From positions 18,052 to 82,051 of the forward strand of contig CAJQGR010000007.1 in the NCBI GenBank assembly GCA_905477785.1: DNA of 64,000 nt, read 5' to 3'. This DNA is from an uncultured Hellea sp. GTDB lineage: Bacteria; Pseudomonadota; Alphaproteobacteria; Caulobacterales; Maricaulaceae. Positions 13,325 through 60,348 of the stretch are shown here, piece by piece. A model generated the notes under the pieces. The model was not told the DNA's origin and did not search any database. It worked only from the letters and a program-made list of their open reading frames with translations. Position 1 is the first letter of the stretch. Each line of letters starts with the position of its first letter. A program made the translations under genes and the position numbers.

Positions 13325-14653
13325 TCAAACCTCTACCTCAACAGGAAAAGCTTTATAGTAAAAATCAAAACGCTCCCTAATTTCCTCAGGTTGGACACCA
13401 AAGTGTTTCTTTAAATTATAACTGACACGGCCATTCTTTCCACGGGGGTGAGCTTTAATAAAAGCATTCATCTCATTCTTTGCTTTCCTAGTTAATTCAA
13501 GGCCATGTAAATCATATATCTTCTCGATAGTATTCATATCGCCCGCCATAAATTCATGAAAAAGTACATCCAAGCTTTGCTCAGGTCTCCAAAGATGTCT
13601 ATCACGCACGCACGCCCGTAACAGAGATTCAATTCGGTTAGTCCAATACTCAATAACGTTTGATGTATCTACAGAGGTTCTTAGAATTCTATGGCCATAA
13701 GCAATCATTGTAGCTGTAGATTGAATAACAGCAACTGGGTCTCGATGGGTTATAATTGCAGTGGCATCAGGCATCACAGACTTAAGAATTGGTAACTGTT
13801 CAGGGTTCTGAACGCATTTTAGTACCCAACATTTATCAGCGTCAGAATCGATTTGTAAAAGCTTTAAAATTTTGATCATGTAAGCATAGTGAGGGGTCTG
13901 ATCTTTAGAAAAATAATAATCGCGATAACTAGGCACCATAGATGTCCATTCAAATTGATTAGAGCCAAAATTAAAAGTCATAAGCTCTAATTCTTCATGT
14001 ATGTGATCTGGGTTCATTGGATGCATTGCCGCCAAATCAGGACCCATTATTTGCATTCCTGACCATCTAGCACTACATCTTAAATAACGCGGGTCATCTT
14101 GCACCAAACTATCACCACTATTTAAAAGCCTCATTAAAAATCTAGATGATAACTTAAGTCCAATACTTGCTTTTTCTTTGCCTGGTGCATGGAAAGGTTC
14201 TTGAGCAAGCCATAGAGGAAGAGACATAAAACGAGAGTCTGATGCTAATAAATTTACTAAATGTGTAGTACCAGAGCGAGGTAGGCCAGAAACAGAAAGT
14301 GGTTTTTTAATTTTGATTTTTTCATAATCTGGATTTTCCTTGATTTTATTTTGAATAATCAAGTGATTACTTGCGCATCTTACCAAATCCTTAAAACATT
14401 GCTGCTCACCTATACCAGATAACTCTTTATCACTCTTATAAGCATCGAGTAATACTTGAAGGGCTTCCCTAAAACTTTCATCTCCAAAATCGGATAACCC
14501 TGTTTGTTTTTTAGCTGCATCCAGTACTGCAGCTTGCGTAAAATTGATTTTACCTTTCTTTGAATTACTCAACGCAATTTTTTGTAAAAATGTTAATTTA
14601 GGACTATCTAAATCATCAAAAATTATTTCTTTTTGCGTACGCTTACTTAACAT
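13325..14653 (-). CDS. Sulfotransferase-family protein
   Basis: This 442-residue protein has the sulfotransferase 5'-phosphosulfate loop VSGLPRSGTTHLVNLLASD (about 117-135) and the later segment AIITHRDPVAVIQSTATM, which matches the 3'-phosphate-binding region. It has no signal peptide, so it is cytoplasmic. The family transfers sulfate from PAPS to hydroxyl groups, although many bacterial members are untested. It is the last gene of the minus-strand operon SDR-MFS-lipoprotein esterase-sulfotransferase, which carries three-box element D. A second, shorter relative lies at 20652. A PAPS-dependent enzyme within a catabolic island is unusual and may modify or store the steroid. Confidence 0.8.
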   Translation of the reverse strand: MLSKRTQKEIIFDDLDSPKLTFLQKIALSNSKKGKINFTQAAVLDAAKKQTGLSDFGDESFREALQVLLDAYKSDKELSGIGEQQCFKDLVRCASNHLIIQNKIKENPDYEKIKIKKPLSVSGLPRSGTTHLVNLLASDSRFMSLPLWLAQEPFHAPGKEKASIGLKLSSRFLMRLLNSGDSLVQDDPRYLRCSARWSGMQIMGPDLAAMHPMNPDHIHEELELMTFNFGSNQFEWTSMVPSYRDYYFSKDQTPHYAYMIKILKLLQIDSDADKCWVLKCVQNPEQLPILKSVMPDATAIITHRDPVAVIQSTATMIAYGHRILRTSVDTSNVIEYWTNRIESLLRACVRDRHLWRPEQSLDVLFHEFMAGDMNTIEKIYDLHGLELTRKAKNEMNAFIKAHPRGKNGRVSYNLKKHFGVQPEEIRERFDFYYKAFPVEVEV

Positions 14654-17995: not shown

Positions 17996-19702
17996 ATGAC
18001 ACCGGATAATAAAAACTGGCACTCGGATGTAGAATCAAAAATGGTGTTAGAAACAGAAAATGATATAACTTGGTCAGTAGTAGCAGATGTAGTTATTGTT
18101 GGCCTAGGCGGAGCTGGGGTGGCAGCAGCTTTAGAATCAATTGAATCTGGAAATAGTGTCTTAGCGATCGATAAATATGAGAGCGGTGGAGCCACCAAAG
18201 CAAGTGGTGGAGTAATATATGCAGGGGGTGGAACAAGTTTGCAAAAAGAGGCAGGAGTCAAAGATACTGCCAAAAATATGTTTAACTATTTAAAGTTAGA
18301 AACCCAGAATATAGTATCAGATCAAACTTTGAAAGATTTTTGCAAGAAAAGTGCCTCCACTGTTGATTGGCTTATCAATCATGGTGTCGAATTAAGAAGT
18401 ACTCTTTGGCAGTATAAAACATCATATCCTTCACCAGAATATTTTTTGTATCACAGTGACAATAGTCTTGTTGAAAACTATAAAAAAAGTGCTTTTCCTG
18501 CTGCACGCGGTCACCGTGGCTATGTTCCTGAAAAACAAGGGGCAAAGGCAACTAATTTAGGCGGATCAATCTTTGACCCGCTAAAGGCCAGTGCAATAAA
18601 AAAAGGGTTAGTAATTCATAACTTTACAGAAGTCAGGCAACTCATAACTAATAAAAAAAATGAGGTAATAGGATTAAAAGCTTATCAATTTAATAATAAA
18701 AACGAACTTCAAGAGTATAAAAATCTTAGGAAAAAAGCATCAAAATTATTAGCTCTATTTCCACCCATAGTGCCAGGATCTAAATATTTCTTCAAAAAAG
18801 CTATGTCATTGATGGAAAAAGCAAATACTTTATTAATCAAAAGAAAAGAAGTTTATATAAGATGCAACAAAGGAATTATATTATCTGCTGGAGGATTTGT
18901 TTTTAACAGAAGAATGGTAGAATATTATGCCCCTAAATACAAAGATGGATATCCCCTAGGTACTGAGGGTGACAATGGCTCGGGCATTAGACTTGGTCAA
19001 TCAGTTGGAGGAATTGCTAAAAATATGGACCGCATGACAGCATGGCGGTTTATAAATCCACCAATTTCTTTTGCTAAAGGCATGATAATAAACACTGATG
19101 GCAAACGTTTTATAAATGAAATGGTCTACGGGGCAACTCTTGGTGTTGAAATGACAGAGCATCATAATGGTTCAGCATGGATGATTCTGGATAAAGTATT
19201 AGTCAAAAAATCTTTAGAAGATGTCAAAAAGAAAAAAGCATTAGCATTTCAACGAGCACTAGCAAAATTAAACATCTACTTTGGCTCTAAAAAAGCGAAT
19301 TCTGTAACTAAGCTTGCCAGATTAATAGGTGTTAATGCGAAAAACCTTGAAAAGGAAATATTAAAATACAACAAAATAGCAAGAGGTGAAATTTTAGATC
19401 CATTTGGTAAAACCAAATATGAAACAAAAGAGTTAAATCTAAATAATATCGTTGCTATTGATATTAGTTTAAACGCTAAACTATTTCCATGCCCCACCCT
19501 TTCTTTGGGTGGACTCTCTGTAAATGAAAAAACTGGTTCAGTACTGAATAATCAAAATACATCTATTTCCGGACTATATGCTGCAGGAAGAAACGCTATA
19601 GGTGTTGCATCTTGGAGTTATGTCAGCGGCTTATCTATAGCAGATTGTATCTATTCTGGTCGCCGTGCAGCAACATCAATTAATAATAAAAAGAAAATTT
19701 AA
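17996..19702 (+). CDS. FAD-dependent 3-ketosteroid dehydrogenase homologue, delta4-(5alpha) type (TesI/KSTD family)
   Basis: This 568-residue flavoprotein has the GLGGAGVAAALE dinucleotide motif at residues 36-47, then GGATKASGGVIYAGGGT as in delta4-(5alpha)-3-ketosteroid dehydrogenase of Rhodococcus. By recalled alignment with that enzyme, the catalytic Tyr in EMVYGATLG and the Tyr and Ser of SYVSGLS appear conserved, as does LYAAGR near the end. The family desaturates 5alpha-3-ketosteroids to delta4-3-ketosteroids with an external electron acceptor. An inserted, lysine-rich segment around residues 225-290 lengthens it by about 70 residues. AGGGG six bases before the ATG fits translation. 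It is transcribed alone and converges on the FGE gene with a four-base overlap. Delta1 activity is an alternative. Confidence 0.82.
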   Translation: MTPDNKNWHSDVESKMVLETENDITWSVVADVVIVGLGGAGVAAALESIESGNSVLAIDKYESGGATKASGGVIYAGGGTSLQKEAGVKDTAKNMFNYLKLETQNIVSDQTLKDFCKKSASTVDWLINHGVELRSTLWQYKTSYPSPEYFLYHSDNSLVENYKKSAFPAARGHRGYVPEKQGAKATNLGGSIFDPLKASAIKKGLVIHNFTEVRQLITNKKNEVIGLKAYQFNNKNELQEYKNLRKKASKLLALFPPIVPGSKYFFKKAMSLMEKANTLLIKRKEVYIRCNKGIILSAGGFVFNRRMVEYYAPKYKDGYPLGTEGDNGSGIRLGQSVGGIAKNMDRMTAWRFINPPISFAKGMIINTDGKRFINEMVYGATLGVEMTEHHNGSAWMILDKVLVKKSLEDVKKKKALAFQRALAKLNIYFGSKKANSVTKLARLIGVNAKNLEKEILKYNKIARGEILDPFGKTKYETKELNLNNIVAIDISLNAKLFPCPTLSLGGLSVNEKTGSVLNNQNTSISGLYAAGRNAIGVASWSYVSGLSIADCIYSGRRAATSINNKKKI

Positions 19703-20649
19703 TAACTACGTACTATCCTAAAACCAGTATGGGAAGTACTAAGCATAAGATCTTGAGCTTGTCTTGCAGCTGGTCGGTATCGATAACAGTAAGATTTTGC
19801 ACAAAGATATGAGCCTCCTTTGATAACTCCTACAGGAATATCATTTTGAGCTGGGTCATAGCCAGTAGGGTAAAATTCTTTAAGGTTCCCAGGCTTATGC
19901 CCTGGATAATAAACAGAAGATGTCCACTCCCAAACATTTCCAATCATATCATACAAACCAAAACCATTAGGCGGATAGCTACCAACAGGCGCAACTCCAA
20001 CAAACCCATCGTCTTTTGTATTAATTACTGGAAAAATTCCATCCCAAGTATTAGCCTTGTTTTTTAAAGCACTCTGCTCTGCATCAGACCAGCTCATAAG
20101 AGTGCCATCTAAACCACCTCGGGCTGCATATTCCCATTCTTCTTCAGTCGGTATTCTGCCTCCTGCCCAAGAGGCATAAGCTTTTGCATCATCAAGGGTA
20201 ATATGTACAACAGGTTCTTGAGGTTTAAAACTAGCCTTATTTAAACCTTGAGGATTTCTCCAATTTGCACCAATTTTATAATTCCACCAACTATTGGATC
20301 TAGTATTTTCGGGTATGATAAATACAGCAGAGCCTGGATCTATATTAACATCCGTATCAATATCCCACCCAGACTCAGCTTTTGATACATAACCCGTCTC
20401 ATTAACAAATATATTAAATTCATAATTTGATATTTCGTGCGACCAAATTTCAAATGGCTCCACACAAACCTCTACCACTGGCCCTTCCTCAATGTATATC
20501 GAAGCTTCTCCCATACTAAAGCATGCGCCCTCAAGTTTAACCCAAGAAGCTTTAGGCGCTATATGATTCTGAGAGGAATTATTAACTTCATTGCAACCAA
20601 CAATATAAAAACAAATGATAGATAGAAAAAAAAATTTTATCACTTTCAC
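19699..20649 (-). CDS. Formylglycine-generating enzyme, predicted lipoprotein
   Basis: This 316-residue protein has the complete FGE-sulfatase domain. The diagnostic active-site segment GGSYLCAKSYCYRYRPAAR near the C-terminus carries Cys283 and Cys288, spaced as the two copper-binding cysteines of human and actinobacterial FGE. IPTEEEWEYAARGG and YDMIGNVWEWTS are also family hallmarks. FGE oxidises the Cys of CxPxR in sulfatases to formylglycine. The N-terminus is a signal with lipobox IVGC (Cys19), so it should act outside the cytoplasm, unlike typical bacterial FGE. The track start is a GTG; AGAGG fits better with a GTG two codons later. Its target is probably the lipoprotein sulfatase at 58777. 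Confidence 0.88.
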   Translation of the reverse strand: MKVIKFFFLSIICFYIVGCNEVNNSSQNHIAPKASWVKLEGACFSMGEASIYIEEGPVVEVCVEPFEIWSHEISNYEFNIFVNETGYVSKAESGWDIDTDVNIDPGSAVFIIPENTRSNSWWNYKIGANWRNPQGLNKASFKPQEPVVHITLDDAKAYASWAGGRIPTEEEWEYAARGGLDGTLMSWSDAEQSALKNKANTWDGIFPVINTKDDGFVGVAPVGSYPPNGFGLYDMIGNVWEWTSSVYYPGHKPGNLKEFYPTGYDPAQNDIPVGVIKGGSYLCAKSYCYRYRPAARQAQDLMLSTSHTGFRIVRSY

Positions 20650-20651
20650 CT

Positions 20652-21809
20652 CTATAAGTATGTTTTTATGTAATGTTTAAATTTGTTACTTATGGTTTCA
20701 TCAGTCAAACCATAATCGCTTAGCTTATAGTTATGTTTTTGACGATTTTCACGCTTATTTGAATTTATCCAATTTTTCATCATTTCTTTCGTAAAATAAT
20801 CATCTTTAATACCAATAGACTTCAATACCTCAGTTCCTATTTTCTGAGGTGTTTGAACTAAATCTAAATAATTGATATCAACAAACCTGTCCTCTGGGAA
20901 AGAATTTCGAATTTTAATAAAATTATCTAACCAATACGAAAGACGGTTAAGCCAATAATTACCAATGTCTAAATCAGAAATATTATTTGTATTTATTTTA
21001 TAAAGAGCTGACTCCATGCTGCAATAAGATGGAACCGTTGAACAAGGATCACGATGGGTCATTATTAATTTAGCTTTAGGAAAATATTTAACCACAGTAG
21101 CTAAAGACATTAAATGGCCTGGAGTTTTAAGAATCCAGCTTTTATTTTTTCTACTTGGGTCTTGCCATTGTAAAGATTGCAATATTTCTATTAGATCAGA
21201 ATAAGATTTATCTGGGTTTTGATTAGTTAACCAATTTGCATAATCAGGCACAAAGTAAGTACTCTCAAGCATTGAGCTAGAAAAAAGCTGGCCAAGAATA
21301 ATTACCTCCTCATCTGCTTGCTCAATATCCATTGGATGAATTGACATTAGATGAGGAATTTTTTCCAACATGAAGCTTAACATAACTTTAGCTAGATCTT
21401 TTCTTTGAGAAGGATTGTTATACTCTTCTTTTTCAAGTGGCGTATAGTTTTGGGCCTCAAACCATTTTACAGCAGTTAGTTCAGGAGCCGACGCGAGCAT
21501 ACGATGCAACATAGTGCTACCTGTCCTAGGTAGACCAGTTAGAACCCCCTTAACATCCACTTTCTCATTAAGTATTTGCGGGTGCATTTTTATCAAATTC
21601 TTATGCCTCAACCTATTTATTAGTGCACCAATAATCATTTGCTCAGCACCAAAATAACCCTCACTTGAAAGTCTAGCTTGAGTATTAAGTGACTTAATAA
21701 ATACATCAATATTTGGAAAAAACCATTCATCCCCAAAATCACTTAAACCTGTGGCTTGCATTGCTTTGTTAATTAAAATTTCCTTATTAGGAACCATAAA
21801 TATAACCAT
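20652..21809 (-). CDS. Sulfotransferase-family protein
   Basis: This is a 385-residue cytoplasmic protein with the phosphosulfate-binding loop LTGLPRTGSTMLHRMLASA and the segment KLIMTHRDPCSTVPSYCS, the second PAPS-contact region. Its N-terminus ATGLSDFGDEWF resembles residues of the other sulfotransferase here (TGLSDFGDESF), so the two are paralogues. It lies two bases upstream of the FGE gene on the same strand, so a PAPS-using enzyme and a sulfatase activator are probably co-transcribed. Divergent from it is the SDR at 21901. The acceptor is unknown. The intergenic region has TACGAA and TTCGTA hexamers but not the canonical boxes. Confidence 0.8.
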   Translation of the reverse strand: MVIFMVPNKEILINKAMQATGLSDFGDEWFFPNIDVFIKSLNTQARLSSEGYFGAEQMIIGALINRLRHKNLIKMHPQILNEKVDVKGVLTGLPRTGSTMLHRMLASAPELTAVKWFEAQNYTPLEKEEYNNPSQRKDLAKVMLSFMLEKIPHLMSIHPMDIEQADEEVIILGQLFSSSMLESTYFVPDYANWLTNQNPDKSYSDLIEILQSLQWQDPSRKNKSWILKTPGHLMSLATVVKYFPKAKLIMTHRDPCSTVPSYCSMESALYKINTNNISDLDIGNYWLNRLSYWLDNFIKIRNSFPEDRFVDINYLDLVQTPQKIGTEVLKSIGIKDDYFTKEMMKNWINSNKRENRQKHNYKLSDYGLTDETISNKFKHYIKTYL

Positions 21810-27885: not shown

Positions 27886-29796
27886 TTATTTTATCCAAAT
27901 AGCTGAACTCCATGCACGATCCTGAATAGTAGCCTGCATATTTGGATTCGGAGGTGTTCCATTGCGAACCGCATCCCAAGTACTCCAACGACACTTTGGG
28001 TTTTCCAATACACGAATATAGTAAGCAGATTTTTGCCCAGGAATATAGTTAGGGTCAGACCAAAGCGCTTTGAGTTCGCTACTACCCGTCTCATCATTCG
28101 TTTGACAGTTAGATAAATCAACTGATGCGCCATTTTCAGGACATCTATTTGTGTCAGGGGATGGCTGAAGATCTCCTGCACAAGAAATATCATAAATCTG
28201 CTCAAGGTTATCAGTTTCATCCGACCAAACCTTTATAATTTGTATTCGCTGTAAAGGGTATCCATCAGGATCCTTTATGGCCCATGCAATAAAATCTGGT
28301 GAATTAGTTCCACTACTTTTAGTACCACCCATTGGTACTCCATTTTTATATGCCTCTTCTAGCATATTTGTTGATGATAAAATCGTATCATTGTAGTTTC
28401 CTGCAAAAAAACGTGTTTTGATACGTGGCCCCGATGTTGCAAAGGTTTCTTTACGTTTCATAGCATCAAATATATCTTCGCGTGTGTTGGACTCAGCCCA
28501 AACACCAGCTAAACCAGACGCTCCGTATGAGGCAGAAGATATAAAAGCTAACTCCGTCTCTTCACTTACAACATTTTCCCAAGACATTTTACCATCTGGG
28601 GGCACTGATCCTCGATTGGCAAGATCAGTATCATGCGAGAACTTACCAAAATGCTGCTCCTCAGATAACGATGGAGCACTAACATGAGTATCAGATGATC
28701 CAATAAATCCGAATTCATATGGATTTTTACCAATATTCTGCTCGATACCAATTCCTCTGGAAAGGGCCTGGCGAACAAAACTACCCGGGACTTTTTTACT
28801 CTCTGTCGCCATGCCAACCAAAATTTCATAAAGTTCATGATTTGCGAATTCATCTTCAGGGGATAGTAAAGGGTGTGTTTCAGAGGTGCCCTTAACTTGA
28901 GTCATTTCTACTATAGGTTCATTTTTAATCCGGTTTGCTGCATAGGTTTTAGTAATGGGGGAACCATCAGACATTGTCATAGAAAACATCTGGCCGTTAG
29001 ATGCGTTAGAGTTGTGAGGTATTGATAATACATCAAAGCCTTCATCCCGTTTATCATTCATCCAGTTCCAAAGGTCTTCAGGGTTTGTTGAATCAAGTGT
29101 TGAAAACAAACGTTCAGGGGCTCTATCACGAAAAATCACATTACGGTGCAAGTTAATTGCTCCCAAATTATCTGCTATTTCACCAATAATATTCATATTA
29201 GTATATTCATAAGCAGCAAAAGTTGTAAATCTACCAGGATCATAATGCTTTTCTGCTGCAAGAACATTCTCTGCCCACGCACTATCTATGAAGTCCCTAT
29301 CATAAATATCTTCTATTGGGTCTCCTGTTACTATTGTTGTTCCAACCTTTGTAAAGGCTTCAATTCGAGCCTCTCTTGACCCACCAAATATTCCAAATAT
29401 TGATTTTGCTGTATCTGTTTTGGAAATAGGGTTATTTCTATCACGCATTGCAGCTAGAACACCCATATATTCCCCATGATCGGTTACTCCGTAAAAATCT
29501 AAAGGGGGACCAGAAATCGTAATATCCTTACCTGCCCCATTATCAATGGTATCACCCTTTGCAAAACGGTAAGCATCATCTGCGGTTGTTCTCGTTCCTG
29601 TTATAAAAGCATCAAAAGAGTTTTTTGTATGCACATGCAAGTCACCAAAATATGCATTTCTTGTATCAACTTTTTCAATTAAAATTGGAGTTGTTTTTGG
29701 TTCAACCACAGAAATTTCTTTTTCTGGTTTTTCCATGCAGCCTGTAGTTAACAATAGACAACATGCAGCGCTTCCTAGGTAAATATTTTTAAACAT
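27886..29796 (-). CDS. DUF3604 lipoprotein
   Basis: This is a 636-residue exported protein with signal and lipobox LTTGC (Cys20). The mature part matches DUF3604, a PHP-like metal-dependent family: YFGDLHVHTKNSFDAF near residue 50, GVTDHGEYMGV, SIPHNSNAS and IGSSDTHV supply the His/Asp metal ligands. The function of the family is not established, though members recur in marine bacteria and steroid-degrading clusters. It is the last gene of the minus operon ligase-amidohydrolase-Rieske-crotonase-DUF3604, nine bases after the crotonase. A phosphoesterase or amidase-like hydrolysis at the envelope is a reasonable guess. Confidence 0.85.
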   Translation of the reverse strand: MFKNIYLGSAACCLLLTTGCMEKPEKEISVVEPKTTPILIEKVDTRNAYFGDLHVHTKNSFDAFITGTRTTADDAYRFAKGDTIDNGAGKDITISGPPLDFYGVTDHGEYMGVLAAMRDRNNPISKTDTAKSIFGIFGGSREARIEAFTKVGTTIVTGDPIEDIYDRDFIDSAWAENVLAAEKHYDPGRFTTFAAYEYTNMNIIGEIADNLGAINLHRNVIFRDRAPERLFSTLDSTNPEDLWNWMNDKRDEGFDVLSIPHNSNASNGQMFSMTMSDGSPITKTYAANRIKNEPIVEMTQVKGTSETHPLLSPEDEFANHELYEILVGMATESKKVPGSFVRQALSRGIGIEQNIGKNPYEFGFIGSSDTHVSAPSLSEEQHFGKFSHDTDLANRGSVPPDGKMSWENVVSEETELAFISSASYGASGLAGVWAESNTREDIFDAMKRKETFATSGPRIKTRFFAGNYNDTILSSTNMLEEAYKNGVPMGGTKSSGTNSPDFIAWAIKDPDGYPLQRIQIIKVWSDETDNLEQIYDISCAGDLQPSPDTNRCPENGASVDLSNCQTNDETGSSELKALWSDPNYIPGQKSAYYIRVLENPKCRWSTWDAVRNGTPPNPNMQATIQDRAWSSAIWIK

Positions 29797-56539: not shown

Positions 56540-57405
56540 TGTTTGAGCAGCTTTCAACAACCATAAAAGGTGTTAATTTATCTGCTAAGTTTTACGCTGC
56601 CTTAGGCGATAAAAAACCTTTCACTTTATTCTGTTTGCCTGGGGGCGGATCATCAGCTGAGTTCTTTGATTTGCATCCAGATTACAGCTTTGTAAAAAGA
56701 ATGAATTCAGTAGGATATAACGTAATTACGATGGATCACCCCGGAACAGCGTCAAATCAACTTCCACTTAATCAGCCATTTTTAAAACCACGAATTTCGG
56801 CGGAGTATATATCGTTAGCTTTAAATGAGTGGAATATAGGAAAACTTATAGGCGTTGGCCACTCCATGGGAGGGATGACAGTAACATTAATTCAAGCAAG
56901 ATATAAGACTTTTGAAGCAATCGCACTATTGGGTTCTAATGCAGGAGGCCTAGACTGGGGGTTAAATGATCATGAAAAAACATATATTAATAAACCTGAA
57001 AGATTTTCCAAAGATATAAAAAAGTTAGTTTATGCAAAATTTGGCTGCGAGTTTACAAAAATACCTTCGGGGCCCAGTGGTAACTCAATAACATTCGGCG
57101 GACAAACAGAAACATTAACTGCTCGGTTAAGAGAAATTTCATGCGAGCTTTATGCAGCAGGAGGGCTAATGAGCATGATAAAAGGTAGTTTTTCCAATGA
57201 AGTCAAAGCAATTGATACATCTATATTTTTTGCATGCGGCGACCATGACATCGGAATTCCTTCAGAAGAGATCGAAAAATATTATACAAATGCATCGAAT
57301 ACGAAATTAATTATACTTAAAGATACAGGTCACAATCACTTTGCTTTTGATTCAATTGGTTTTCTCTGTGAAAGTTTTGATTATTGGGCTTCTAGTCTAG
57401 CCTGA
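56539..57405 (+). CDS. Alpha/beta hydrolase
   Basis: This is a 288-residue alpha/beta hydrolase with the oxyanion stretch CLPGGGSS, nucleophile GHSMGGMT (Ser near residue 112), an acid in CGDHDIGIP and the His in DTGHNHFAF, so the triad is complete. There is no signal peptide. It follows the ferredoxin gene without a gap and is probably transcribed with it from the O2 region. Its 3' end overlaps the convergent MBL gene by 22-25 bases. Possible roles are ester or CoA-thioester hydrolysis, or C-C hydrolysis; none is decided by sequence. Confidence 0.82.
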   Translation: MFEQLSTTIKGVNLSAKFYAALGDKKPFTLFCLPGGGSSAEFFDLHPDYSFVKRMNSVGYNVITMDHPGTASNQLPLNQPFLKPRISAEYISLALNEWNIGKLIGVGHSMGGMTVTLIQARYKTFEAIALLGSNAGGLDWGLNDHEKTYINKPERFSKDIKKLVYAKFGCEFTKIPSGPSGNSITFGGQTETLTARLREISCELYAAGGLMSMIKGSFSNEVKAIDTSIFFACGDHDIGIPSEEIEKYYTNASNTKLIILKDTGHNHFAFDSIGFLCESFDYWASSLA

Positions 57406-58784
57406 TTATTAGTCAGCTTGTGATTTAACCAATATATTTCATAACTATTTTTAGTTGTATTATTAGCCTGCTTTAATAATTCTTTTAAAACAACATTCTC
57501 AAAATCTAATACAGGGCCCTGATAATCATTATCAGCGAGCACAATTTCTATTAAGTGTAATGCTTTTAAAAATTCACTCCTATCAATGTATATTTGAATC
57601 AATTTTTGCATTTCTACAGTATCTATAATACCCAAAAGATCAGTATAAACATCACTTTGCGGAACAGCATATAACTCAGTAGTTTTATCAAAATGAAACC
57701 AAGTAGAATAATATTCCCAAATGGACTTTACAGCCCATGAAACTTTTCCATGCTCTTGAGAAATACTAAGTTCAGTGGGTAATTTTACTGTCCTCATTAA
57801 CTCTTCTACTGTTTGTCCATTATTCATTCCTTTTATGGTTTCGTTATGAACGTGTTGAGTGGCCCCAAGAATTTTTCTAAGCCCCTCGTCTATAAAAAAT
57901 TTATTATCTATAGGCTCTTTGTGACTAGGGATGATCATTATCGGATCCAGATCAATTATTTTTTGAAGTGATTTTATGTACTCAAATGGTTTTCTTATTT
58001 TTTCACCTCGCATTGTGAAAATATTCGGGAACTGGGGAAAAAGAGGGCCGAAGAAATCACCAGAGAATAAAATTCTTCTCTGTGGAAGCCAAAGAACAAG
58101 ATTATCTGAACCCTCTGCACCAGATAAGGCATATATTTCAAAATCCATACCTCCTTTTGTAAACTTATAAGGTGCGTTATTATCTACTAAAAGTGTTGGC
58201 TTTACCCCGCCAGTTAATAGGAGATCTAATTTAGGAGGAGTTTCAGGCATCCAAGGAAATAATGTTCTATTTCTATTCCACAAATAAGTTTCTAACTCTT
58301 TTAAATATCTTTGTTCTTCCTCAAATTCAACATGAGTGATAATTTGCATTCCATCTTTAAACCAAAACTTAAAACCACCCGTGTGGTCAGCATGTGAATG
58401 CGATAAAATTACATGAGATACATTTACCTCGGGATACACCTTACTTAATGCCGATATTTGCTTAGCCGCCTGTATAGAAAGACCTGTATCAAACATGACA
58501 TCTCCCTCAGAAGTTTTTATCACATGCGTGTTTCCAACACCTGTTATTTGCATAATATCTGGAGCAATTTTTCTGACTTCAATAGGAATATTTATGAATT
58601 CAGCCGCAACTGAACCTTTAGCATTCGGATTACTAGAAATTCTATTCGATGCAATATCATCAATCTGGTTTACTAGTTTTAATTGAACAGTTTTTTTAAA
58701 GTTAGGCGAAAAATTAAATATTAGAAAAAAACCCATTAAAAAAATTAATATTAAAAAAAAAGTATATTTGAACGCTTTAATCAT
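57381..58784 (-). CDS. Alkylsulfatase-like MBL-fold metallohydrolase, membrane-anchored
   Basis: This is a 467-residue protein; I use the ATG at 58784 rather than the TTG two codons upstream. An N-terminal hydrophobic anchor precedes an MBL domain with HSHADHTGG, GDFFGP and IIPSHKEP metal-site motifs. The region after about residue 300 (VEELMRTVKLP ... GKVSWAVKSIWEYYSTWF) resembles the dimerisation domain of SdsA1-type alkylsulfatases. The SCP2-like third domain of those enzymes is absent. It overlaps the sulfatase gene by eight bases, so two potential sulfate-ester hydrolases form one operon. Another MBL hydrolase activity remains possible. Confidence 0.78.
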   Translation of the reverse strand: MIKAFKYTFFLILIFLMGFFLIFNFSPNFKKTVQLKLVNQIDDIASNRISSNPNAKGSVAAEFINIPIEVRKIAPDIMQITGVGNTHVIKTSEGDVMFDTGLSIQAAKQISALSKVYPEVNVSHVILSHSHADHTGGFKFWFKDGMQIITHVEFEEEQRYLKELETYLWNRNRTLFPWMPETPPKLDLLLTGGVKPTLLVDNNAPYKFTKGGMDFEIYALSGAEGSDNLVLWLPQRRILFSGDFFGPLFPQFPNIFTMRGEKIRKPFEYIKSLQKIIDLDPIMIIPSHKEPIDNKFFIDEGLRKILGATQHVHNETIKGMNNGQTVEELMRTVKLPTELSISQEHGKVSWAVKSIWEYYSTWFHFDKTTELYAVPQSDVYTDLLGIIDTVEMQKLIQIYIDRSEFLKALHLIEIVLADNDYQGPVLDFENVVLKELLKQANNTTKNSYEIYWLNHKLTNNQARLEAQ

Positions 58785-60348
58785 ATTCAATTAGCCCTTT
58801 ATCAGTATGACGGTTTTGTAAAATTTTCGCACGCATCCCAGAAACATATGTATTATAACCCTCGCTCTGAAGATTTGCCGTTGGCGTCACATTTTCAGCA
58901 TAGTCCTTAGGTGCCCTCCATCCTGGGTGCGGTGACAAAGCCACACGTACTCCATTTATTGGATGATTACTTCTCCATTTACGAATTTTTTCACTCATAT
59001 TTTTTACTCGCGATGGATAATCTTTCGCTAAGTTTTTTTCTTCCTCAGGATCAGAAATAATATCAAAAAGAAAGTTTTCAATCTCAGTTGATTGAGACTT
59101 ATGGTCGATAATTTGAACGAGTTTCCATTTTTCTTCTAAAACCGCCAAATGATACTTATTAAAAATTGGAGAATTTGATGCAAAGTAAAGATCCCCATTC
59201 CTTAAGTCCTGACCTGAATTGATAATGGCGCCTAATCGGCTCTGTCCGTCCAAAGGTTTTTTATTCAGCATAGGAATATTAACTAAATCAGATAAAGTTG
59301 GATAAACATCTAAAACAGAAACAACGTTGTTTGTACGCGTTCCACCTGTAATACGGCCCGGCCATTTCATCAATGCATTAACACGAATACCGCCTTCAAA
59401 GGTTTCTAATTTCCCCCCCTTGAAAGGACTATTATCGGCACCAAATGCCTTTAAACCGCCATTATCACTGAAGAAAAAAACTAGAGTATTATTTTCTAAA
59501 CCTTCCTCTTCTAAAGATCGTAATATATCCCCAATAGCTTGGTCAAGGCTATCGACCATTGCAGCATAGGTGCGTTTAGGGAACGGTCGATTAGACCTAG
59601 ATTTATACTTATTTTCTAACTCTATTGGGGCTTGCATTGGAGCGTGTGGTGAAAGGAAGGGAACATACATAAAGAAAGGTCTTTCAGTATCACGGATTTC
59701 TTTAATAAATTTAACTGCTTCTTCTGCATGGAGGTCAGTCGCGTATTGATTGGAGCCCTTAAATGATAAACCATTTACTTGTAAGTCATACCCCCCCGCT
59801 ACTGTATAGTCATAATAGTCTATTTGGGTATTTAAGTGACCAAAAAAATAATCAAAGCCTCGTGAATTAGGAAGTAAAGGTTCAGTTGTATGACCTAAAT
59901 GCCATTTCCCAATCATAGCGGTTTGATACCCTGCTGCTTGAAAAGTTTCTGGCATAAAATGTTCTTCTGGAGATACACCGCCATTTTGCCAAGGCTGAAA
60001 ACCCGCATAAACCGTACCTAATCTCATGGGATCTCTCCCAGTCATTAAAGCGCTTCTTGTTGGAGTACAAATTGGCATCGAATAAAACCGGTTGAGTGTA
60101 AGACCTTCCTTTGCAAGACTATCAATATTGGGTGTCTGAATATCGCTCCCCCGATAACTTAAGTCGGCCCACCCAAGATCGTCGGCCAGTAAAATAACAA
60201 TATTTGGCAATTGTGAGTTTGCAGATAATGTATTTGTAGTTAAAGGTTTATCGGTTTTAACTTCAGAAACTTGGTCATTACTTTCTTCAACACTTAAATT
60301 ACAAGCTGATATATAGATCATACAAAAAAAGAAGAAAATTAGTCGCAT
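58777..60348 (-). CDS. Formylglycine-dependent sulfatase, lipoprotein
   Basis: This is a 523-residue type I sulfatase with signal and lipobox YISAC (Cys16). The activation site is MPICTPTRSALMTGR with Cys94, i.e. the C-x-P-x-R motif converted to formylglycine by FGE. Metal-site Asp pair LLADDLGWADL (residues 54-64), KWHLGH and FSDNGG are also present. It belongs to the arylsulfatase class and acts outside the cytoplasm. The FGE at 19699, also a lipoprotein, is the likely activator. It precedes the MBL gene and follows the TonB receptor gene on the same strand, separated by a terminator. A sulfated sterol is a plausible substrate, but many sulfate esters fit. Confidence 0.9.
   Translation of the reverse strand: MRLIFFFFCMIYISACNLSVEESNDQVSEVKTDKPLTTNTLSANSQLPNIVILLADDLGWADLSYRGSDIQTPNIDSLAKEGLTLNRFYSMPICTPTRSALMTGRDPMRLGTVYAGFQPWQNGGVSPEEHFMPETFQAAGYQTAMIGKWHLGHTTEPLLPNSRGFDYFFGHLNTQIDYYDYTVAGGYDLQVNGLSFKGSNQYATDLHAEEAVKFIKEIRDTERPFFMYVPFLSPHAPMQAPIELENKYKSRSNRPFPKRTYAAMVDSLDQAIGDILRSLEEEGLENNTLVFFFSDNGGLKAFGADNSPFKGGKLETFEGGIRVNALMKWPGRITGGTRTNNVVSVLDVYPTLSDLVNIPMLNKKPLDGQSRLGAIINSGQDLRNGDLYFASNSPIFNKYHLAVLEEKWKLVQIIDHKSQSTEIENFLFDIISDPEEEKNLAKDYPSRVKNMSEKIRKWRSNHPINGVRVALSPHPGWRAPKDYAENVTPTANLQSEGYNTYVSGMRAKILQNRHTDKGLIEYD

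Follow-up and report, generated by a model that had tools for sequence, protein, structure and literature searches.

The window, a 64,000-nt stretch of DNA from an uncultured Hellea sp., encodes a formylglycine-generating enzyme (FGE) with an apparent lipoprotein signal at its N-terminus. Bacterial FGEs have been described as cytosolic (PMC4505483). The locus raises the question of whether a catalytically complete FGE may be exported in these bacteria, and whether it may activate sulfatases after, rather than before, their export, as a sequence-only reading of this DNA had proposed.

Identity of the FGE

The gene and its upstream neighbor are as follows.

19699..20649, (-) strand: predicted lipoprotein FGE (PF03781), 316 aa, with C283/C288, Glu72, predicted anchor C19 and putative disulfide C43-C62
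20652..21809, (-) strand: sulfotransferase (PF13469), directly upstream of the FGE gene, 2-bp gap

The FGE reading frame starts with a GTG codon, 2 bases past the stop codon of the sulfotransferase gene. This adjacency was kept in some relatives and absent in others. The product matched PF03781 (E 3e-66) over residues 34-314, which covered positions 3-255 of the 255-position profile.

C283 and C288, in GGSYLCAKSYCYRYR, aligned with the cysteine pair of human FGE in GGSYMCHRSYCYRYR. The pair was invariant across 68 aligned relatives, as was Ser280, and Glu72 was nearly invariant. Glu72 occupied the position of human E130, as placed from aligned PDB variants. Ser280 we take to be the counterpart of human S333.

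The best match by sequence among solved structures was human FGE (E 4.5e-63), and the actinobacterial copper FGEs were also matched. A structure model predicted from the single sequence (pLDDT 31) was replaced by an AlphaFold2 model built from 68 sequences (pLDDT 87). In a Foldseek search with the latter, human FGE came first (E 6.8e-29, TM 0.75/0.85), including its Cu(I)-bound form, with the FGEs of Thermomonospora curvata and Streptomyces coelicolor just behind; PvdO, PorK and EgtB were far lower. The window FGE shares its catalytic domain and copper site with these two actinobacterial enzymes (2q17, 6muj, 5nxl, 6s07). By every available sequence test the protein appeared to be a true FGE with predicted catalytic activity, in agreement with the earlier claim that both copper-site cysteines are kept.

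An FGE fold devoid of FGE activity would be one alternative. PorK/GldK and PvdO, which are not known to be formylglycine-generating enzymes, are also exported proteins with this fold (PorK/GldK being lipoproteins), but their sequence match was far weaker (E 1.5e-14 and weaker). Exported non-catalytic proteins of this kind also include bacterial OCTIN, which has an FGE domain and a signal sequence, is periplasmic and disulfide-bonded, forms high-order oligomers and lacks the catalytic cysteines (PMC5915273), whereas the window FGE has both. With the catalytic cysteines, Ser280 and Glu72 all kept, with sequence and fold far nearer to true FGEs than to PorK/GldK, PvdO or OCTIN, and with sulfatase linkage in its relatives (see below), an inactive fold seemed highly improbable.

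Predicted export and lipidation

20593..20649, (-) strand: predicted lipoprotein signal peptide and lipobox, MKVIKFFFLSIICFYIVG followed by C; lipobox in 8/8 Hellea-type sequences

The N-terminus, MKVIKFFFLSIICFYIVG followed by CNEV, is a typical lipoprotein signal with the lipobox IVG-C19. A charged n-region, a hydrophobic core and a lipobox with its Cys, the marks of a bacterial lipoprotein, are all found in MKVIKFFFLSIICFYIVGC. Between the upstream stop codon and the GTG start there was no earlier start codon, and the only other early starts were at codon 3 (GTG) and within the domain (ATG). With no earlier start and few later ones, the N-terminus MKVIKFFFLSIICFYIVGC followed by NEV cannot have come from a reading frame that was called too long.

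The lipobox was present in all eight Hellea-type sequences, the window's included (IVGC, VVGC, VLGC, LMGC, LMGC, LVAC, LSAC and ASAC), and the residues flanking it diverged. As a background, a similar rule found a lipobox in 42 of 883 long ORFs, or about 5%, true lipoproteins counted in. Lgt and LspA are both encoded in the window genome. Signals in this study were called by a hand-written rule, with a few corrected by eye. Export of the FGE is strongly predicted from these features, and the proposed signal and lipobox of an exported lipoprotein were borne out as a prediction. This predicted placement differs from the cytosol, to which prokaryotic FGE has been assigned (PMC4505483).

The only FGE and the sulfatases of the window genome

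The window genome is a 1.83-Mb draft in 92 contigs, 97% complete, and was searched family by family. It yielded a single PF03781 protein, although a second FGE could be missing from a draft of this completeness. No anSME was found in it above the cut-off (best 19 bits vs 349). Four PF00884 sulfatases were found. All four contain CxPxR, and at the N-terminus each has a signal, a lipobox or a membrane anchor. If the draft is missing nothing, the only possible activator of these exported sulfatases is itself exported.

One of the four lies in the window and is listed here with two other genes of the same island.

58777..60348, (-) strand: sulfatase of the S1 type (PF00884), predicted lipoprotein with Cys94 in CTPTR; likely FGE substrate
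57381..58790, (-) strand: metallo-beta-lactamase-fold protein with a hydrophobic segment at its N-terminus and a weak match to alkyl-sulfatase dimerisation; overlaps the sulfatase gene; context only
27886..29796, (-) strand: DUF3604 protein, encoded within the conserved island; listed for context

The sulfatase carries the lipoprotein signal MRLIFFFFCMIYISAC and has Cys94 in its CTPTR motif, so that its description as a lipoprotein sulfatase with this cysteine stood as predicted. Its placement beside the FGE did not: the two genes are 38 kb apart, and the association holds at the level of the island. In four relatives (G153, G785, G757 and G760) they were some 33-54 kb apart on the same contig.

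The window FGE has its closest named relative, at 81% identity, in a MAG of Hellea. The island around the FGE is catabolic and is conserved in Hellea-type genomes, with SDRs, an FAD oxidase, Lrp regulators, a GMC oxidoreductase and DUF3604.

Two further features of the island may be mentioned. The metallo-beta-lactamase-fold protein at 57381-58790 is a second, unrelated candidate for a sulfate-ester enzyme. Two PF13469 sulfotransferases (13325-14653 and 20652-21809) share the island with the sulfatase and FGE, bringing sulfation and desulfation genes together.

A lineage of predicted exported FGEs

FGEs were collected by searches over the order, class, phylum, family and named genomes. The collection was seeded from the window protein, and its counts describe the neighborhood of that protein rather than how common such enzymes are among bacterial FGEs at large. 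On this basis, 174 distinct FGEs had both catalytic cysteines, and 132 of them had a predicted export signal. These came from Alpha-, Beta- and Gammaproteobacteria, Cyanobacteria and a Myxococcota MAG. The signal was called lipoprotein in 62 and cleaved or membrane-anchored in 70; this split is approximate, as some of the lipobox cysteines, mostly cyanobacterial, are more likely N-terminal disulfide partners.

The residue after GGS followed the same division. With His at this position, 24 of 30 FGEs had no signal; with Tyr, Phe or Trp, 126 of 144 were exported.

On an unrooted quick tree of 118 rows, the exported label changed only twice, compared with a mean of 24.5 changes when the labels were shuffled. 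One group (SH-aLRT 88) held 89 of the 90 exported rows; three rows (L013, L090 and L220), with signals just under the rule, had been labeled exported by eye. The subgroup of 12 that contained the window FGE had full support.

The window FGE belongs to a large lineage of predicted exported proteins, and is not the exception among cytoplasmic bacterial FGEs that it had been taken for. Likewise, a lipid anchor is predicted for the window protein as proposed, but within the lineage lipidation is just one of several modes of anchoring.

Non-catalytic cysteines

The non-catalytic cysteines of the 132 exported FGEs fell at a few sites: the N-terminus directly before the domain (109 proteins), position 224 (83), position 67 (27), and positions 43 and 62 (17 each), in window numbering. 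There were practically no further sites. They occurred as one pair per protein, in the combinations 43 with 62, N-terminus with 224, or N-terminus with 67. Such a pair was present in 127 of the 132: a script scored 118, and the other nine were those whose N-terminal partner it had misread as a lipobox cysteine.

The no-signal FGEs, on the other hand, had one to six scattered non-catalytic cysteines. Cys312 was present in 27 of 42 of them and in 1 of 132 exported FGEs.

In the model of the window FGE, C43 and C62 are on strands 42-46 and 59-63. In an antiparallel hairpin with the presumed register of pairing, these positions would lie opposite one another. Pairing of this kind is as expected of disulfides under selection in an oxidising compartment. 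The cysteine pattern is independent of the signal-peptide rule and serves as a separate line of evidence.

Linkage of exported FGEs to sulfatases

For 70 named loci with an exported FGE, the genes up to 5 kb away were sorted into clusters. A sulfatase was present in 51 of the 70, separated from the FGE by a median of 59 bp. It alone recurred widely; no shared reductase or copper chaperone did so within the 5 kb. When the sulfatase was within 2.5 kb of the exported FGE, it was itself exported by the rule in 42 of 43 cases. In the remaining one (L215), the lipobox LAAGC was visible by eye.

In genomes where only an exported FGE was found, 41 of 43 cysteine-type sulfatase-fold proteins were exported, a count that takes in proteins with a divergent motif (CRPTL or CRASL) as well as some signals called by eye. 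This set consisted of the window genome, 18 others and G712, whose FGE (L063) has a predicted signal. The corresponding number in 11 genomes with no-signal FGEs was 29 of 50 (Fisher p 2.3e-5, with kinship among genomes ignored). LtaS- or EptA-like members of PF00884 (such as L114, L140 and L175) are without the formylglycine motif and were left out.

The two exceptions were cytosolic-looking proteins, L173 (CSASR) in G760 and L198 (CAPGR) in G712, where the only FGE found is exported. Most of the other exported-only genomes contained one FGE, and several of these are one-contig assemblies.

The 29 of 50 indicated that no-signal FGEs evidently serve exported sulfatases too. An exported sulfatase alone is therefore no proof of the action of an exported FGE. 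This bears on a reading in which formylglycine is made in the cytosol, by an FGE precursor that is active before export or by a second FGE absent from the draft, with the lipoprotein form as a by-product. The characterised bacterial FGEs, described as cytosolic (PMC4505483), would also fit it. On the other hand, there is a single FGE here and in most exported-only genomes, several of them one-contig assemblies, and the lineage-wide pairing of cysteines implies an oxidised working form. These argue against formylglycine formation in the cytosol, which we regard as very unlikely.

A separate observation concerns L109 in G758, a genome with only an exported FGE. This sulfatase has the motif CAPTR and a signal resembling those of the Tat pathway, RRNLMRSVAGAAF. 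If it is truly exported by Tat, modification after folding or before export would be required.

Sulfatase-fold proteins with CRPTLQ

In the closest non-Hellea relatives (G065, G108, G084, G128, G150 and Marinicaulis), the exported FGE gene adjoins that of a signal-bearing sulfatase-fold protein with CRPTLQ (L171, L123, L124, L122, L287 and L208, respectively). The two genes overlap by 4 bp in G065, G150 and Marinicaulis. Leu replaces the Arg of CxPxR in these proteins, and the GKWH histidine is lost (GKWW) in the members read fully. In G108, G084 and G128, the CRPTLQ protein was the only sulfatase-fold protein at the cut-off used. The CRPTLQ proteins are possible non-canonical FGE substrates.

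This suggested an alternative in which the main substrate of the exported FGE is not a canonical sulfatase, but either a different exported protein or one that is sulfatase-like and has a divergent motif. The 38 kb between the window FGE and the nearest sulfatase would be in keeping with it, as would the CRPTLQ neighbors in these six relatives. However, the search of the window genome yielded no CRPTL protein, its four sulfatases all have CxPxR, and exported FGEs elsewhere adjoin canonical sulfatases. We consider a non-canonical main substrate unlikely.

A proposed model for activation after export

Taken with canonical sulfatases as substrates, it appears quite likely that the window protein is a copper-dependent FGE that is exported via Sec, lipidated at Cys19 and faces the periplasm, where it would modify exported sulfatases after translocation. 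FGE recognises a short linear motif in sulfatase chains that are still unfolded. The enzyme tethered to the membrane would oxidise the CxPxR cysteine as the unfolded chains leave the translocon, before they fold. The lipid or membrane anchor would keep it near the membrane, the C43-C62 disulfide would stabilise it, and the periplasmic side would supply oxygen and copper. The arrangement would be shared by the exported lineage, whether through a lipid anchor, a transmembrane anchor or a cleaved signal.

Activation after export, as claimed earlier, is favored by the sole FGE, the exported sulfatases, the gene linkage, the paired cysteines and the lineage. The timing of formylglycine formation after translocation is what we infer, together with the actual localisation, metal loading, reductant and substrate identity.

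For the lineage as a whole, we judge it likely that these are exported, catalytically complete FGEs of several phyla, which use three alternative disulfides and form formylglycine in the periplasm after translocation, as a counterpart of separate origin to maturation in the ER.

Relation to known systems

Exported FGE-fold proteins without catalytic function are already known. In the part of the open literature that was covered, no description turned up of a bacterial FGE that is both exported and catalytically complete, which does not establish its absence.

If the model is correct, a branch of FGE outside the cytoplasm would change the understanding of exported sulfatases in marine and other bacteria, and would place a copper enzyme where copper is handled. 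Extracytoplasmic formylglycine formation would have arisen more than once. For expression of exported sulfatases in a foreign host, matching the compartment of the FGE may matter.

The ER-resident human FGE (SUMF1) resembles the window FGE in its copper-site cysteines, GGSYxC motif, fold and E130 equivalent. A non-cytosolic, oxidising compartment and structural disulfides are also shared, as a prediction in the case of the window FGE. On the other hand, the window FGE has a lipobox and no ER signal or retention extension, and its disulfide is at a different position.

On the tree, SUMF1 grouped with three alphaproteobacterial no-signal FGEs (99, starred), unlike the window FGE, and not with the exported lineage. 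Of the analogy to the ER drawn in the sequence-only reading, the functional likeness was retained and a common lineage was not. Within the limits of a quick tree without a root, residence in the ER and export in bacteria seem to have arisen separately, by convergence.

The three no-signal FGEs in the SUMF1 group (L048, L050 and L051) contain GGS[YF]LCHxSYCxRYR, and are possible relatives of the eukaryotic enzyme.
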